Made by a program: the position numbers and the translations under genes
The notes under the pieces: generated by a model
Told to the model about the DNA's origin: nothing
The model's database searches: none
Seen by the model: the letters and a program-made list of their open reading frames with translations, nothing else
Origin: Sphingomonas jeddahensis
GTDB taxonomy: Bacteria; Pseudomonadota; Alphaproteobacteria; Sphingomonadales; Sphingomonadaceae
NCBI RefSeq assembly: GCF_001981525.1
Contig: NZ_MPSB01000005.1
Location: 62,001-126,000 of the forward strand
Length of the DNA: 64,000 bases
Reading direction: 5' to 3'
Shown: positions 5,356 through 62,668 of the stretch, piece after piece
Position numbering within the stretch: the first letter of the stretch is position 1
How the letters are laid out: each line of letters opens with the position of its first letter

Positions 5356-6140
5356 CCAGCATTGCCGAGGCGGCGCGCATTGTCCTCGAAACTGCCGAGC
5401 CGCTCGAGAAGGTGAGGGCCGCTCGCCACGCCGCACGTGCGTGGCGAAAAGGCAAGCTCGATCACCGGTTCAATGTGGAAATGCCCGAGGAGCCAGCGCG
5501 GCCGGACCGACCCGAGCTGTTGCCGCCGAACCGCATGCCCAAGCGCGGCAAGGGCGGCTCGGAACGCGGGCGCCTCGCGCTGCTGCACGCGCTGGCGCAC
5601 ATCGAGTTCGTGGCGATTGACCTCGCCTTCGACATGGCGGCGCGCTTCGGCGCGCAGTTTCCGCGCGCGTTCGTGGATGACTGGATTTCGGTCGGGGCGG
5701 ACGAAGCGATGCATTTCGCCATTCTCGATCGTCGCCTTCGTTCGCTTGGCAGCTTCTACGGTGCGCTGCCGGCCCATGACGGGCTTTGGGAGGCGGCAAG
5801 TGCCACGGCGGGGGATGCGCTGGCGCGGCTCGCGGTGGTTCCGATGGCGCTGGAAGCGCGCGGACTCGACGTGACACCGATGACGGTGGAGCGGTTCCAT
5901 GGGGCCGGTGATCACACCAGCGCGCGCATCCTGCACCGCATCTATTCCGATGAAATCCGACACGTTCGCTTTGGCACCAAATGGTTCGAGATCGCCTGCG
6001 AAGACGGCGGCCTGACCCCCGCCACGCATTGGCAGGCGCTGATCGGAACGCAATTTCGCGGGATCGTGAAGGGTCCGTTCAACGACTCGGCGCGTGACTC
6101 TGCCGGCCTGACGCGGGATTACTACGGCGCTATTGCCTAA
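5352..6140 (+). CDS. Ferritin-like domain protein, DUF455 family
   Basis: 262-residue protein of the DUF455 family, a ferritin-like group related to the tRNA hydroxylase MiaE. Likely iron-binding motifs are spread along the helices: ALAHIEFVAIDLAFD, DEAMHFAILDRRLRSLG, and IYSDEIRHVRFGTKWF, each giving Glu and His candidates for a di-iron site. The GTG at 5352 overlaps the bcp stop (GTGA) and begins the region conserved in the family. Substrate unknown. The association with a peroxiredoxin is seen here, but a shared oxidative-stress role is only inference. Confidence 0.85.
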   Translation: MTSIAEAARIVLETAEPLEKVRAARHAARAWRKGKLDHRFNVEMPEEPARPDRPELLPPNRMPKRGKGGSERGRLALLHALAHIEFVAIDLAFDMAARFGAQFPRAFVDDWISVGADEAMHFAILDRRLRSLGSFYGALPAHDGLWEAASATAGDALARLAVVPMALEARGLDVTPMTVERFHGAGDHTSARILHRIYSDEIRHVRFGTKWFEIACEDGGLTPATHWQALIGTQFRGIVKGPFNDSARDSAGLTRDYYGAIA

Positions 6141-6267
6141 CCCACGAAGAACAGGCCAGTTGCGGATGTCCGGGTGCGGGGGGCCGCAATCCAGACCAGT
6201 TTTGAAGAATCAAAGCGCGTCGGGTCGCCTCGGCGTCTATCGTTTCAACGATCTCGCTCGGGGTTCG

Positions 6268-7476
6268 ATGACCAACATTTCTTTCGCGTCGGCTAACCGC
6301 ATCGCTGCTGGCGCCCGCCTTCTCTTTTCGCCGCGTAACGTGATCTTTCATGACGGGCGCTCGGTTCGCCGTCTGCGCCTGAACGGCCTGTCACAAGGCG
6401 TGGCGGCCAGCGCTGCGGCCGTGGTGGTGGCCTTTGCCGGTTACGGCGCCGCAACCGCGACCGGGCAGGCCGCATCGGCGGCAGGCCTCACTGCCGCGCC
6501 GCAGGCCGAGCAGCGCATCGCCGGCATGGAGCGCAAGCTCGAAAGCATGCAGACTCGGGTCGCCGCTGTTCGCAAGAGCGCGGAACAGCATGCCACCCGG
6601 CTGGAGCAGCGCCAGGCGCTGCTCGCTGCTGCGCTGACCGGCGTTGGTGACGAAAAGAAGCTGGCGCTCGCCACGCTCAAGATCGATCCGAACGGTGATC
6701 GGCTGGCGGCATTCGCGCTGGCGCCGTTCGGCAAGGTCGAGCGTCGGCAGGCGATGCTGGCAGAAGTGGCGTTGAACCAGCTCAACGACCGTTATTCGCT
6801 CGCCACCAGCGAAATTCGTGAGCGCGGGTTACGGCCCGAGCGTCTCGTGAAGGGCCGCAAGCTTGAGGCAATGGGTGGACCGCTGATCCCGGCGGCGAGT
6901 GCGGAAGCAACCGCGGATCTGAACGCCGACGCCCAGTTCCGTTCGCTGTTCATGACCTGGAAGAAGCTCGACACGCTGGAACAGGGTGTGATCTCGATCC
7001 CGTCGGTTCAGCCGGTGGCGCATCTTCGCTTCACCAGCAACTTCGGGGTGCGCAGCGATCCCTTCCGCGGCACCGCTGCGATGCACGCCGGCGTCGACAT
7101 TCCCGGGCCGGTCGGCACGCCGATCTATGCAACCGCCGATGGCATCGTGAACCATGCTGCCCGACAGGGCGGTTATGGCAACATGGTCGAGGTAAATCAC
7201 GGAAAGGGTATCGCGACCCGCTACGCCCATCTGTCGAAGATCATTGTCGGCGACAATGCACGGGTTCGCCGTGGCCAGATCATCGGCCTGATGGGGTCGA
7301 CCGGCCGATCGACCGGCTCGCACCTTCATTATGAAGTGCGTATCGACGGGCGTGCGGTGAATCCGGTGCCGTTCCTGACCACTGCGGATTATCTGCTGGC
7401 CGTACAGGATCGTTCGGTCGGTCAGATCCCGGTGTCGACAACCGGCCCGGCGGCGCAGGACGCTCACGACCATTGA
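6268..7476 (+). CDS. M23 family metallopeptidase (membrane-anchored murein hydrolase)
   Basis: Probable cell-wall endopeptidase or amidase activator of the LytM/M23 type. Starting at the ATG at 6268 it has 402 residues: a hydrophobic anchor at about 38-62, a helical coiled-coil-like region at about 70-150, and a C-terminal M23 domain. The zinc ligands are in place: HxxxD at His273 and Asp277 (MHAGVDIPG), and HLH at 352-354 (GSHLHYEVRIDG). Full conservation of ligands suggests an active enzyme and not a degenerate EnvC-like activator. In-frame codons upstream of 6268 do not look like coding sequence. Confidence 0.88.
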   Translation: MTNISFASANRIAAGARLLFSPRNVIFHDGRSVRRLRLNGLSQGVAASAAAVVVAFAGYGAATATGQAASAAGLTAAPQAEQRIAGMERKLESMQTRVAAVRKSAEQHATRLEQRQALLAAALTGVGDEKKLALATLKIDPNGDRLAAFALAPFGKVERRQAMLAEVALNQLNDRYSLATSEIRERGLRPERLVKGRKLEAMGGPLIPAASAEATADLNADAQFRSLFMTWKKLDTLEQGVISIPSVQPVAHLRFTSNFGVRSDPFRGTAAMHAGVDIPGPVGTPIYATADGIVNHAARQGGYGNMVEVNHGKGIATRYAHLSKIIVGDNARVRRGQIIGLMGSTGRSTGSHLHYEVRIDGRAVNPVPFLTTADYLLAVQDRSVGQIPVSTTGPAAQDAHDH

Positions 7477-48535: not shown

Positions 48536-49486
48536 TCAGGCCGCCGCTTCCAGCGCGCGCGGCAGCTTGAACGCAATGGTCTCGCGCGTCGTCTCTTCCT
48601 CGCGCTCGGTCACCTCGTACCGCGTCGAGAGCAGATCGACCAGTTCGCGCACCAGCAATTCCGGCGCCGACGCCCCGGCGCTCACCCCCAGCGTTCCCAC
48701 GCCCTCAAGGAACGCCCAGTCGAGATCGCTCGCGCGCTGGATCAGCGCTGCGCGAACGCCCTCGCGCTCCGCCACTTCCACCAGCCGTACCGAGTTCGAC
48801 GAATTGGGTGCCCCGATCACCAGCACCGCGTCGCAGGCGCTTGCGATCGCCTTCACCGCCGCCTGGCGGTTCGACGTGGCGTAGCAGATGTCCTCGCCGC
48901 GCGGCGGCTGCATGTTGGGGAAGCGGCGCTGTAGCGTGCGCACCACTTCCGCCGTGTCGTCCACCGACAAGGTGGTCTGAGTCAGAAAGGCGAGATTGTC
49001 CGGATCGGCCGGCGCGAACGCCTCCGCATCCTCCACATCCTCAACCAGCGTCATCGATCCCTCGGGAACCTGGCCGAAGGTGCCGATCACCTCGGGATGC
49101 CCCTGGTGCCCGATGAACACGATATGCCGCCCCGCTGCTACCAGCCGCTCCGCCTGGCGGTGCACCTTGGAAACGAGCGGGCAGGTGGCGTCCAGATAGT
49201 CCAGCCCGCGCGCCTGGGCGTTCGCGGGTACCGACTTGGGCACGCCATGCGCGGAGAACACCACCGGCGCGCCGTCGGGCACCTCGTTCAGTTCCTCCAC
49301 GAACACCGCGCCCTTGGCCTTGAGGCTGTCCACGACGAACTTGTTGTGAACGATTTCGTGACGGACATAGACGGGCGCGCCATGCTTCTCGATCGCCAGC
49401 TCGACGATGCGGATCGCACGGTCGACCCCGGCGCAGAAGCCGCGCGGCGCGGCGATCAGCAGTTCGAGCACGGGCTTGTCTGTCAT
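48536..49486 (-). CDS. ispH: 4-hydroxy-3-methylbut-2-enyl diphosphate reductase
   Basis: Last enzyme of the MEP isoprenoid pathway (LytB), an Fe-S protein making IPP and DMAPP. 316 residues. The cluster cysteines are in [15 protein letters not shown] (Cys18), in [13 protein letters not shown], and in [12 protein letters not shown] or [27 protein letters not shown] and the [10 protein letters not shown] segment near the C-terminus are also standard. First gene of the operon with thrB and rnhA; divergent from the lipoprotein at 49567. Confidence 0.96.
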
Positions 49487-57863: not shown

Positions 57864-58775
57864 CTACGTTATAGCTCGCTCGGTTCCATGCCGCCGCCGA
57901 ACATGCTCCCGCCACACGATATAGAGACCGGAGGCGACGATCACCGGCGCGCCGACCCACGTGCTCGCCACCGGCAGCGTGGCAAAAACGAGCCAGCCAA
58001 ACAGGGTTGCCCAAAGCAACGCGGTATAATCCATCGGCACGACAAGGCTGACGTCGCCGAGTTGTAGCGATCGCGTCATTGCGATCTGCGCCGCGCCGCC
58101 GAGTAGCCCGATGCCGAGCAGCAGCGCCCAGACGAGCGGCGGATGCGGCTGCGCGACCATCATGTAGAAAGGCGCGAGCGGCACCATCGACAGCACCGAG
58201 AACCAGAACACCGTCGTCAGTCCCGCCTCCGTCTTACCGATCGTGCGCAGCAGGATGGAGATGCACGCGGTGCAAAAGGCCGCGCCAAGCCCGGTCGCGA
58301 TGCCCAACGGCGGGATATGCCCGCTGCCGGGTTGGGTGACGATGATGACGCCCACGAACCCCGTCAGCACCGCGGCCCAGCGCCGCCACCCGGTCGCCTC
58401 GTGCAGCACCAGCGCGCCGAGCACCGTAGCGAAGATCGGCATGGAGAAGCCGAGCGTCGTCGCTTCGGCAAGCGGCAGCAGCAGCAGGGTCCAGAAGGTA
58501 AGCGACATGGCAGTGAGGCCAACCACGCAGCGCACGATATGGGCGCCGAACCGCCTGGTCCGGAGCGAGCCGAAGCCCGGCCCCCCACCAACGATGCTGC
58601 CGACCAGCAACGCCGCCCCGAACTGCCGCCAGAACAGGATCTCGCCGAGCGAGGCGCCGCGCGCCTCGACGAGCTTGATCCCGACATTCATGGTGGCGAA
58701 TAGCGCGACTGATGTGAGGCGCAGGCCGATGGCGTGCGACAGGGACTCGGAGCTGCCCGGCATGAGCCCGCGCAT
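57864..58775 (-). CDS. DMT superfamily transporter (EamA family)
   Basis: About 300 residues with ten predicted transmembrane helices in two EamA repeats: LTSVALFATMNVGIKLVEAR, FSMPIFATVLGALVLHEATG, and in the second half VPMDYTALLWATLFGWLVFA. Probably a small-metabolite exporter. The start is uncertain: ATGs at 58775 and 58763 are both reasonable, since helix 1 begins just after. Confidence 0.85.
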   Translation of the reverse strand: MRGLMPGSSESLSHAIGLRLTSVALFATMNVGIKLVEARGASLGEILFWRQFGAALLVGSIVGGGPGFGSLRTRRFGAHIVRCVVGLTAMSLTFWTLLLLPLAEATTLGFSMPIFATVLGALVLHEATGWRRWAAVLTGFVGVIIVTQPGSGHIPPLGIATGLGAAFCTACISILLRTIGKTEAGLTTVFWFSVLSMVPLAPFYMMVAQPHPPLVWALLLGIGLLGGAAQIAMTRSLQLGDVSLVVPMDYTALLWATLFGWLVFATLPVASTWVGAPVIVASGLYIVWREHVRRRHGTERAIT

Positions 58776-59103
58776 ATGGGAGCCGTGCCGCTGGGGAAAC
58801 CGTCTTATCGGCAGCAGCACGATCTTTCTTTGCCGAGCGCGGGCTTACGTGCGGTTCGCTGAGCCGACCTGACGATTGTCGGGGATTGCTCCGAGTCGGC
58901 GCAAAACAACCGTAAAGGCTGACCGCTCTTCAGCGACAATGGTAATAGTGACGCTCGTAGCAGTCATATTGGCTCTCCTGATCGAAGCCTTGCGGCTGTC
59001 AGCGAGTGTCGATCACCTGAGCCGAACAGCGCAACGAACGTTTGCTCCGGTTTGGATCCATGAGCGACTTTCCGCGACTCGCGCGAGAACGTATAAGGAA
59101 CAA
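58776..59103. other. Gap upstream of the Cas5-like gene
   Basis: No independent gene is called. The plus frame continuous with the Cas5-like gene is open from 58876. It contains an ATG at 58939 followed by a hydrophobic run (VIVTLVAVILALLIEALRL), which would give a membrane-anchored form of the protein, but without a good ribosome binding site. No CRISPR repeats, leader-like A/T-rich tract or remnant of another cas gene was recognised. Confidence 0.4.
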
Positions 59104-59676
59104 ATGGGTGCTGAGACGTCGGTAAAGGTGGTTGTGAGAGGCGAGAGCGCTTGCTTTCCACGACCGGAGTTTCGCCGTGATCAGATCTCCTACGACGTGC
59201 TCACCCCGGCATCGGCGCGCGGAATTCTCGATCGCATTCACTGGCGTCCGGCAATACGCTGGGTTGTTACATCGATCGCCGTGCTCAAACCTATTGCTTT
59301 CGCCGAGAAGGAGAGCGCCGCTACTGGCGGCCGGGCGGTTGTTCTACGGGACGTCGCCTATGTTATCGAGGCGCGCTTCGACATGACCTCCCGCGCTGGC
59401 CCCCTCGATGAGGCCGCACGGCACCGTGGGATGTTCAAGCGTCGCCTGAGAGCCGGCGCAACGGTGTATCTGGGGAGCGATTGCCATCCAGCGGAGGCCA
59501 TTCTGTTCGATGAAGCCGGTGAGGGCGGAACCCCGATCCCCTCGACGCGCGACCTGGGCTGGATGGTGTATGAGGCAGACTATGAGGACCGAGGACGTTT
59601 GCGCTTCTTCCGAGCCGAGCTGATCGACGGCGTCGTTTCGGTACCGCTCCCTGGTAGCTCGCAACTCTACGGATAG
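59104..59676 (+). CDS. Orphan Cas5d (type I-C Cas5)-like protein
   Basis: 190 residues with clear Cas5d/Cas5c signatures: ACFPRPEFRRDQISYDVLTP, ASARGILDRIHWRPAIRWVV, VVLRDVAYVIEARFDMTSRA and TRDLGWMVYEADY with RFFRAELIDGVVSVP. In type I-C systems this protein cuts pre-crRNA and caps Cascade. At the Tyr46 position of Bacillus halodurans Cas5d it has His46, and the catalytic Lys-His pair is Arg106-His107. The segment between LKPIAF and VVLRDV is shorter than usual. No other cas gene or array is in the window. The ATG at 59104 has AAGGAA just upstream; a longer start at 58939 would add a membrane segment. Intact, so possibly repurposed. Confidence 0.8.
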   Translation: MGAETSVKVVVRGESACFPRPEFRRDQISYDVLTPASARGILDRIHWRPAIRWVVTSIAVLKPIAFAEKESAATGGRAVVLRDVAYVIEARFDMTSRAGPLDEAARHRGMFKRRLRAGATVYLGSDCHPAEAILFDEAGEGGTPIPSTRDLGWMVYEADYEDRGRLRFFRAELIDGVVSVPLPGSSQLYG

Positions 59677-59728: not shown

Positions 59729-61264
59729 ATGATCAAGCATGCGCTCCCCGTCACCCGCGAGGCGGATTTTGCCGCCTGGTACCAGGCCGTCATCACCGAA
59801 GCCGACCTCGCCGAGGAATCGGGCGTGCGCGGCTGCATGGTCATCCGGCCATGGGGCTATGGCATCTGGGAGCGGATCCAGCGCTTGCTCGACGATCGCA
59901 TCAAGGCGACCGGGCACGAGAATTGCTACTTCCCGTTGTTCATCCCGCTTTCCTATTTCGAGAAGGAAGCCGAGCACGTCGAGGGCTTTGCCAAGGAGAT
60001 GGCGGTCGTCACGCACCATCGGCTCGTCGCCGACGGCGAGGGCGGGCTGGTGCCCGATCCCGAAGCCAAGCTGGAGGAGCCGCTGGTCATCCGGCCGACC
60101 AGCGAGACGGTGATCGGCACCGCCTTTGCGCGCTGGGTGCAATCGTGGCGCGATCTGCCGGTGCTGATCAACCAATGGGCCAATGTCGTGCGCTGGGAAA
60201 TGCGCACGCGCATGTTCCTGCGCACCGCCGAGTTCCTGTGGCAGGAGGGGCATACCGCGCACGCCAACGCGGAGGAGGCGCGCGAGGAAACGCTCAAGAT
60301 GCTCGAGGTCTATCGCGAGCTGGCCGAAGATTGTCTCGCGCTGCCGGTGATCGCGGGCGAGAAGCCGGAGAATGAGCGCTTTCCCGGCGCCGTCGCGACC
60401 TATTCGATCGAAGCGATGATGCAGGACGGCAAAGCGCTCCAGGCGGGCACCAGCCACTTCCTCGGCACCAATTTCGCGCATGCCCAGAATATCCGTTTCC
60501 AGAATGCCAACGGGGAACTGGAATTCGCCAACACGACGAGCTGGGGCGTCTCGACCCGCATGATCGGCGGCGTGATCATGGTGCATGGCGACGACGACGG
60601 GCTGCGCGTGCCGCCGCGCATCGCGCCGTGGCAGGTGGTGATCGTGCCGATGCTGCGCGACAAGCCCGAGGACGCGGAGCTCATCGATTATTGCAAGGCG
60701 TTGCAGGCCGACCTGGCGAAGCAGAGCGCGCTGGGCGAGCCGGTGCGCGCGCTGCTTGATCTCAAGCCCGCGAAGGCGGCAACCAAGCGCTGGGGCTGGG
60801 TGAAGAAGGGTGCGCCGATCATTGTCGAGGTGGGCCCACGCGACATGGCCGGCGGCAACGTCTCGGTTGTGCGCCGCGATCGACTGTATCGCGAGGATGG
60901 CAAGCTCGACAGCGCGATCCTTGGCCGCGATGCGTTCGTGGGCGACGTCGCGGACATGATCGCGGACGTTCAGGCGCAGCTGTTCGCCGACGCCGATGCG
61001 CGGTTGAAGAGCAACATCGCGCCAGTCGACGACTGGGCAACGATCGAGGCGATGTTCGCCGATAGCGCCGCCAAGCCGGGCTGGTTCGACGTTGCCTGGT
61101 CGCGCCCGACCGGTGCCGAACTCGACAAGGTGGTGGAGCGACTGAAGGCGCTGAAGCTCACCATCCGCAATGCGCCGATGGGCCAGACCGGGCATCCGGG
61201 CGCGGCATGCATCTTCACCGGCGCGCCGGCGGTCGAGCGCGTGCTGATCGGGCGGTCCTACTGA
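59729..61264 (+). CDS. proS: Prolyl-tRNA synthetase (archaeal/eukaryote-like type)
   Basis: Charges tRNA-Pro. 511 residues of the ProS type without a large editing insertion: MIKHALPVTREADFAAWYQA, RGCMVIRPWGYGIWERIQ, PLVIRPTSETVIG (motif 2 region), EFLWQEGHTAHANAEEA and DGKALQAGTSHFLGTNFA. A C-terminal extension follows, ending APAVERVLIGRSY. This form is shorter and different from the long E. coli type. Downstream of the Cas5-like gene on the same strand by 52 bases; the stop overlaps the next ATG. Confidence 0.95.
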   Translation: MIKHALPVTREADFAAWYQAVITEADLAEESGVRGCMVIRPWGYGIWERIQRLLDDRIKATGHENCYFPLFIPLSYFEKEAEHVEGFAKEMAVVTHHRLVADGEGGLVPDPEAKLEEPLVIRPTSETVIGTAFARWVQSWRDLPVLINQWANVVRWEMRTRMFLRTAEFLWQEGHTAHANAEEAREETLKMLEVYRELAEDCLALPVIAGEKPENERFPGAVATYSIEAMMQDGKALQAGTSHFLGTNFAHAQNIRFQNANGELEFANTTSWGVSTRMIGGVIMVHGDDDGLRVPPRIAPWQVVIVPMLRDKPEDAELIDYCKALQADLAKQSALGEPVRALLDLKPAKAATKRWGWVKKGAPIIVEVGPRDMAGGNVSVVRRDRLYREDGKLDSAILGRDAFVGDVADMIADVQAQLFADADARLKSNIAPVDDWATIEAMFADSAAKPGWFDVAWSRPTGAELDKVVERLKALKLTIRNAPMGQTGHPGAACIFTGAPAVERVLIGRSY

Positions 61265-61837: not shown

Positions 61838-62668
61838 CTAGTCATTTCCCCCGATCAGGTCGCCCAAACCGCCGAGTACCGAGCCCTCACCGCGGTTTCC
61901 GCCGCCACCGCTGGCGGCGGCCATCATCCGGCCGGCCAAACGGGCGAACGGCAGCGACTGTATCCACACCTTGCCCGGTCCGGTCAGCCGGGCGAAGAAC
62001 ACGCCCTCGCCGCCGAAGAACATGCTCTTGACGCCGCGCACCATCTCAAGGTCGAAGTCGATTGATGGCGTGAACGCCGCAAGACAGCCCGTATCGACGT
62101 GGAGCTGCTCTCCCGGCCGAAGCTCGCGCTCCACCAGCGTGCCGCCCATTTGCACGAACACCCAGCCGTCCCCCTCCAGCTTCTGCATGATAAAGCCTTC
62201 GCCGCCGAACAGGCCGGTCATCATCCGGCGCTGGAACGCGACGCCGATCGACACGCCCTTGGCAGCGGCAAGAAAGCTGTCCTTCTGGCAGATCAGCGTG
62301 CCGCCGACATCGGCGAGCCGGATCGGCAGGATCGAGCCGGGCGTGGGGCTGGCAAAGGCGACACGCGCCTTGCCCGATCCGCGATGGGTGAAAACAGTGG
62401 TGAACAAGCTTTCGCCCGTCACCAGGCGCTTGCCCGCGCCGAGCAGTTTGCCCATGAACCCGCCATCCGCACCGCCGGAACCGTCGCCGAACACGGTGGT
62501 CATGTCGATCGAGGCATCCTTCCACACGAAGGCGCCGGCCTCGGCGACGGCGCTTTCGCCAGGATCGAGCTCGATCTCGACAAACTGGAGCTCCTGTCCC
62601 TTGATCTCGAAATCGATGTCGTCGGACAGGCCCGGGCGGGCAACGTGGGACCAGGGACCAGCAGCCAT
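61838..62668 (-). CDS. AIM24/TIGR00266 family protein
   Basis: 276-residue beta-sandwich protein of the TIGR00266 (AIM24-like) group. Motifs: IKGQELQFVEIELDPGESAV, the glycine-rich GKLLGAGKRLVTGESLFTTV, LICQKDSFLAAAKGVSIGVA and GEQLHVDTGCLAAFTPSID. A C-terminal Gly-rich tail follows. Biochemical role not known. Confidence 0.9.
   Translation of the reverse strand: MAAGPWSHVARPGLSDDIDFEIKGQELQFVEIELDPGESAVAEAGAFVWKDASIDMTTVFGDGSGGADGGFMGKLLGAGKRLVTGESLFTTVFTHRGSGKARVAFASPTPGSILPIRLADVGGTLICQKDSFLAAAKGVSIGVAFQRRMMTGLFGGEGFIMQKLEGDGWVFVQMGGTLVERELRPGEQLHVDTGCLAAFTPSIDFDLEMVRGVKSMFFGGEGVFFARLTGPGKVWIQSLPFARLAGRMMAAASGGGGNRGEGSVLGGLGDLIGGND

Follow-up and report, generated by a model that had tools for sequence, protein, structure and literature searches.

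The window, that is the whole stretch of 64,000 nucleotides analysed here (contig NZ_MPSB01000005.1 of Sphingomonas jeddahensis, positions 62,001 to 126,000), harbours a solitary gene related to cas5c, flanked by housekeeping genes. The following features were located at this site, with positions counted within the window:

57864 to 58820, minus strand: EamA/DMT-type transporter, the left neighbour conserved at proS-site loci (synteny and Pfam).
59087 to 59101, plus strand: GAACGTATAAGGAAC, an exact GAACN7GAAC LexA (SOS) box found by pattern match, ending 2 bases before the ATG.
59095 to 59099, plus strand: AAGGA, probable ribosome-binding site, 4 bases 5′ of the ATG and within the LexA box.
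59104 to 59676, plus strand: solitary short Cas5c-like gene, 190 aa plus stop (profile matches and AlphaFold2 model).
59239 to 59244, plus strand: codons of His46-Trp47, at the position of BhCas5d Tyr46 (alignment); His is normal here for proteobacterial Cas5c.
59419 to 59424, plus strand: codons of Arg106-His107, at the positions of the catalytic Lys116-His117 of BhCas5d (alignment).
59729 to 61264, plus strand: prolyl-tRNA synthetase proS, the right neighbour conserved at proS-site loci (synteny and Pfam).

The frame is unbroken, and its 190 aa product is a homologue of Cas5c, with a match far beyond chance. It scored 100.5 bits against TIGR01876 (curated cut-off 85), 159 bits against the PADLOC Cas5c profile, and 59 bits against Pfam Cas_Cas5d (PF09704, cut-off 23), and matched the Xanthomonas oryzae Cas5d 3vzi with an E value of 4e-43. 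A Cas5c fold is also predicted by an AlphaFold2 model built from seven input sequences (mean pLDDT 81.5), whose top 11 PDB matches were all Cas5c-type entries, the nearest being 3vzi (TM 0.78), 3kg4, 8dej, 7kha, and 4f3m. An upstream start at TTG 58876 was ruled out at family level, because in the orthologues L064 and L065 a stop codon immediately precedes the homologous ATG. The first-pass annotation of this DNA had described an intact Cas5d-like gene with a good ribosome-binding site, and both descriptions were borne out, the AAGGA at 59095-59099 overlapping the LexA box.

Family searches of the whole S. jeddahensis assembly detected neither cas7c nor cas1. The genome-wide searches took in these two genes and the core of the type I-C repeat (Sphingomonas repeat RNA, GTCGCCTCCCGCGCGGAGGCGTGGATCGAAAC). 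Matching the repeat core to the assembly yielded three isolated hits of 13/14, each on a contig of its own, and no I-C array was present. A concealed type I-C system elsewhere in the genome was ruled out by the missing cas7c, cas1, and array, which together with the housekeeping neighbours agrees with the earlier view of the gene as an orphan with no CRISPR system nearby.

A search with the window protein gave matches in 35 of the 295 genomes of the genus. Short solitary cas5c genes are present in 28 of the 295, the window genome counted, i.e. in about one in ten, and several carrier genomes possess two of them. Full-length Cas5c (about 221-225 aa) was found in six of the 35 matching genomes, and one more has a weak fragment only. 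The full-length loci show cas3-like and cas8c-like ORFs, and five of the six genomes with full-length Cas5c encode cas7c, versus none of the genomes with solitary copies. Mutual exclusion of solitary copies and type I-C systems is not significant alone, the expected overlap being about 0.6 genome. In one genome (G281, locus L035), cas3-like and cas8c-like ORFs accompany a full-length Cas5c, but cas7c gave no match; this may be a damaged I-C locus.

Beyond the genus, Cas5c was mostly full-length in the searches that covered the order (398 genomes) and the class (385 genomes). Another genus of the same family is represented by a genome (G267) with two short copies, one of them broken. The set of solitary genes comprises 35 loci, from Sphingomonas plus one other genus. 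The second solitary gene of S. jeddahensis (G000:C7:149072-149590; L031:14064-14618) is 39% identical to the window copy and sits between RlmD-like and DUF892-like genes. Both the genus-wide family and the LexA box were absent from the first-pass annotation.

The solitary genes form one clade among proteobacterial type I-C Cas5c (support 92/86, 94% of bootstraps); they have a single origin, from proteobacterial type I-C Cas5c. The chromosomal site of the window is common to 18 loci, with proS adjoining or near in 17, and the syntenic solitary copy upstream of proS that had been proposed for a search in other sphingomonads was thereby found. Distances between the Cas5 proteins at this site correlate with those between the proS neighbours (Mantel r 0.65, a value that none of 5000 permutations reached), a pattern indicative of vertical inheritance and numerous losses. 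Another site, at the atp operon, comprises eight loci, six of them directly after priA. The priA set, which includes the second S. jeddahensis copy, is a clade nested within the solitary genes (support 96/90), and S. jeddahensis carries one gene of each clade, the proS set and the priA set.

No neighbour cluster common to all sets of solitary genes was found that could indicate a partner gene. Plasmid origin was rejected, the plasmid matches being ordinary I-C Cas5c with less than 40% identity, and so was phage origin, as no short forms were present among the viral sequences searched; the search of a phage collection gave one match only. Different neighbours were noted at single loci. The solitary gene L070 (G531:C78) directly follows a gene that looks RadC-like by eye, and a CBASS set of cyclase, E1-E2, and JAB lies about 3 kb away. 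L071 (G347:C6) has a serine-recombinase-like ORF (5719-7464, by sequence reading) with the solitary gene about 1.5 kb after it, which suggests an island copy. A small nuclease-like ORF (SNase-like by eye) adjoins the solitary gene in both L033 and L079, which belong to different genera.

Intact solitary genes are under purifying selection. Nei-Gojobori dN/dS, with pairs having saturated synonymous sites left out, came to 0.07, 0.15, and 0.21 in closely related pairs and ranged from 0.27 to 0.43 in more distant ones; true I-C Cas5c gave 0.12-0.14. Seven of the 35 copies are broken (L034, L066 at the N terminus, L067, L090, L091, L092, and L093), so the solitary gene is dispensable. It also evolves fast, since the mean protein distance is 0.62 versus 0.17 for proS. 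Broken copies and fast protein evolution would both suit a remnant of a lost I-C locus that drifts to decay and has a LexA box by coincidence. Nevertheless, we regard such a relic as very improbable: it is largely refuted by the selection on intact orthologues, whose dN/dS is well under 1, and the genes form a single clade sharing the loss of a catalytic Lys and an insert (see below), of which S. jeddahensis keeps two copies. The first-pass annotation had taken broken relatives as the mark of a relic; disrupted copies do occur, but the intact ones keep their low dN/dS. Its reading of the gene as a retained stand-alone protein is supported by the synteny at proS, by purifying selection, which came out in the dN/dS comparison that it had suggested, and by the lack of an I-C system in the genome. 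In Sphingomonas sp. TZW2008, the proS-site copy (L067 in G442, and L026) has one in-frame TAA in an otherwise intact frame, and its dN/dS to the nearest relative is about 0.2.

The catalytic triad of BhCas5d, whose sequence was compared with 4f3m, consists of Tyr46, Lys116, and His117. A review (PMC3727216) gives Lys as the one residue of the Cas5c triad that never varies, and states that the Tyr may be replaced by His, e.g. in the active Xanthomonas and Mannheimia enzymes. All ten true proteobacterial I-C Cas5c compared possess His at the Tyr46 position. The same ten possess the equivalent of Lys116, versus only one of 29 solitary proteins (L033). This position is occupied by Arg in the window protein, and by Ala, Gln, Met, Glu, His or a gap in the others. 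In the priA set, the His117 equivalent and the catalytic helix motif are also gone. An insert of about 30 aa present in sphingomonad I-C Cas5c is absent from nearly all solitary proteins; the loop of BhCas5d is short too, so the missing insert alone is no proof of lost function. The Cas5 core, on the other hand, is kept at 86-100% (ACF-RPE, YD, P, A, LG, D-G as DLGW, FR as FFR). Because the invariant Lys and a cas operon were both tested for and are missing, the window family is not classed as a functioning type I-C Cas5c.

These comparisons divide what had first been said about the active site. The change of Lys116 to Arg106 is real; His46 was ruled out as a sign of decay, being usual in proteobacterial I-C Cas5c and documented in active enzymes (PMC3727216). 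The loop falls about 30 aa short of that in sphingomonad I-C Cas5c, yet BhCas5d has a short one too. The suggestion of a stand-alone RNase is disfavoured, because Lys is lost in 28 of 29 solitary proteins and the catalytic helix motif is lost in the priA set. A related possibility is an SOS-induced RNase or toxin whose changed active site (His46, Arg106, His107) still cuts RNA and slows growth after damage. Control by an SOS box and frequent loss would fit such a costly effector, a His46 does not preclude activity (PMC3727216), and the window protein still has its Arg-His pair. However, with the Lys that is reported as invariant (PMC3727216) lost nearly throughout, and His and the helix motif missing from the priA set, what selection maintains across the family is not RNA cleavage, and we consider an RNase or toxin distinctly unlikely.

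Read on the opposite strand, the box of the window gene is GTTCN7GTTC, the alphaproteobacterial LexA box, whose consensus was reported for Caulobacter (PMC12700426). Nineteen of the 35 solitary genes have an exact box at their start, versus 2 of 606 other ORFs on the same contigs; this enrichment (p 6e-25, not corrected for the shared descent of the solitary genes) also speaks against a relic with a coincidental box. Both of the two boxed ORFs are one orthologous gene, radical-SAM-like by eye and probably another SOS gene, with an exact GTTCN7GTTC at its start (L072:11983-13053 and L075:11348-12448 in the oriented loci, minus strand). Among true I-C cas5c genes the exact box was found in one of ten, a weaker difference from the solitary genes (p 0.027). 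An exact box precedes recA in 13 of 13 and lexA in 13 of 13 genomes tested, S. jeddahensis included. In several solitary genes, chiefly those of the priA set, GAAC recurs three or four times at 11-bp spacing, as it does in the lexA promoters of the genomes concerned, and the second S. jeddahensis copy has two overlapping GAACN7GAAC boxes at its start. The exact box is missing in 16 of the 35 solitary genes, some of which have one mismatch and others none of the motif (no box at e.g. L033, L070, L071, L080, L085, and L086); several single copies are among the boxless.

From the predicted LexA box, the solitary Cas5c would be SOS-regulated and induced through it. A role of the GAAC motif in translation or at the RNA level is also conceivable, as the boxes of the solitary genes are all in the GAAC orientation, opposite to those of recA and lexA, and overlap or closely precede the start. 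A non-coding RNA common to the gap between the transporter and cas5 was rejected on an alignment of the upstream regions, in which hardly anything was conserved apart from the GAAC motif next to the start. A further GAACN7GAAC at 49337 of the window, inside ispH, was taken as chance.

Retention in the absence of type I-C, the lost Lys, and the LexA box that most lineages have at the start codon make the solitary gene look like a CRISPR part recruited into the SOS response. That the window gene belongs to a Sphingomonas lineage of solitary type I-C Cas5c derivatives which are LexA-controlled, non-cleaving, and RNA-binding is, in our judgement, somewhat probable. To the fuller account, in which Cas5c was domesticated once in Sphingomonas as a LexA-controlled, cutting-deficient, RNA-binding DNA-damage protein, was duplicated, and is kept independently of type I-C, we give an even chance. 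LexA would repress the gene until DNA damage occurs, and cleavage of LexA activated by RecA would then allow the protein to be made. The retained Cas5 surface together with the lost catalysis suggests that the protein may bind RNA without cutting it, probably a hairpin or an element resembling the 5′ handle. In that case its part in the damage response would be that of an effector or regulator that binds RNA, and not that of a crRNA maturase. The same LexA control, and the adjacency of one set of copies to priA, would be expected of a repair factor whose Cas5 fold acts on DNA at sites of damage instead of on RNA. However, the conserved residues are those common to crRNA-binding Cas5c, and the priA adjacency may be incidental; we therefore regard a DNA-acting factor as most improbable.

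The main rival to a LexA-controlled RNA-binding protein is an anti-CRISPR decoy, in which the shortened Cas5c competes for I-C crRNA or Cascade subunits and is switched on by the SOS response when mobile DNA or prophages are active. What keeps it in this place is the island setting of two single copies, the first with CBASS and the second close to a serine-recombinase-like gene. A decoy could also be expected to retain the Cas5 core and to lack the insert and the catalytic Lys, and a viral precedent is described in PMC13131331, namely AcrIB3, a Cas5 homologue acting inside Cascade. Yet the main sets occupy fixed chromosomal sites, with the proS set vertically inherited, the carrier genomes possess no I-C system to inhibit, and the coding on mobile DNA typical of AcrIB3 was not seen apart from the two island copies; the short form has no relatives in the viral contigs and phage sequences searched. 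We consider a decoy unlikely.

To our knowledge, most of the stand-alone cas genes on record are anti-CRISPRs or relics. The open-access literature searched, in which subscription papers are mostly absent, held no description of a Cas5 homologue in the alphaproteobacterial LexA regulon and none of an SOS-controlled solitary Cas5c, which is not proof of novelty. If the proposed reading is true, a vertically inherited, SOS-controlled Cas5c would exemplify a CRISPR subunit that has acquired a new function in the cell, and it would offer a simple test of what the RNA-binding surface of Cas5 is capable of without Cascade. For annotation, a match to type I-C Cas5c in these genomes does not equal a CRISPR system.

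Similar to type I-C Cas5c (Cas5d) in sequence family, predicted fold, and conserved core motifs, the solitary protein differs from it in that the window genome lacks cas7c, cas1, and an array, the catalytic Lys is missing from 28 of 29 solitary proteins and the insert from nearly all, and a LexA box lies at the start of the window gene. AcrIB3 is, going by the account of Katz et al. 2024 in PMC13131331, the closest working parallel: a viral Cas5 homologue with 38% identity that lacks the 'hook' contacting Cas8b and acts from inside Cascade. Both are solitary Cas5 homologues missing an accessory element. However, AcrIB3 is viral and targets type I-B, whereas the solitary genes are chromosomal, vertically inherited at the main site, and equipped with an SOS box, in hosts without an I-C target. 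The non-catalytic Cas5 proteins of other type I systems likewise have a Cas5 fold without endonuclease residues, but they work inside Cascade with Cas7, and the genomes with solitary copies lack cas7c. With the alphaproteobacterial LexA regulon, finally, the window gene shares the exact GTTCN7GTTC, which recA and lexA in these genomes carry as well.
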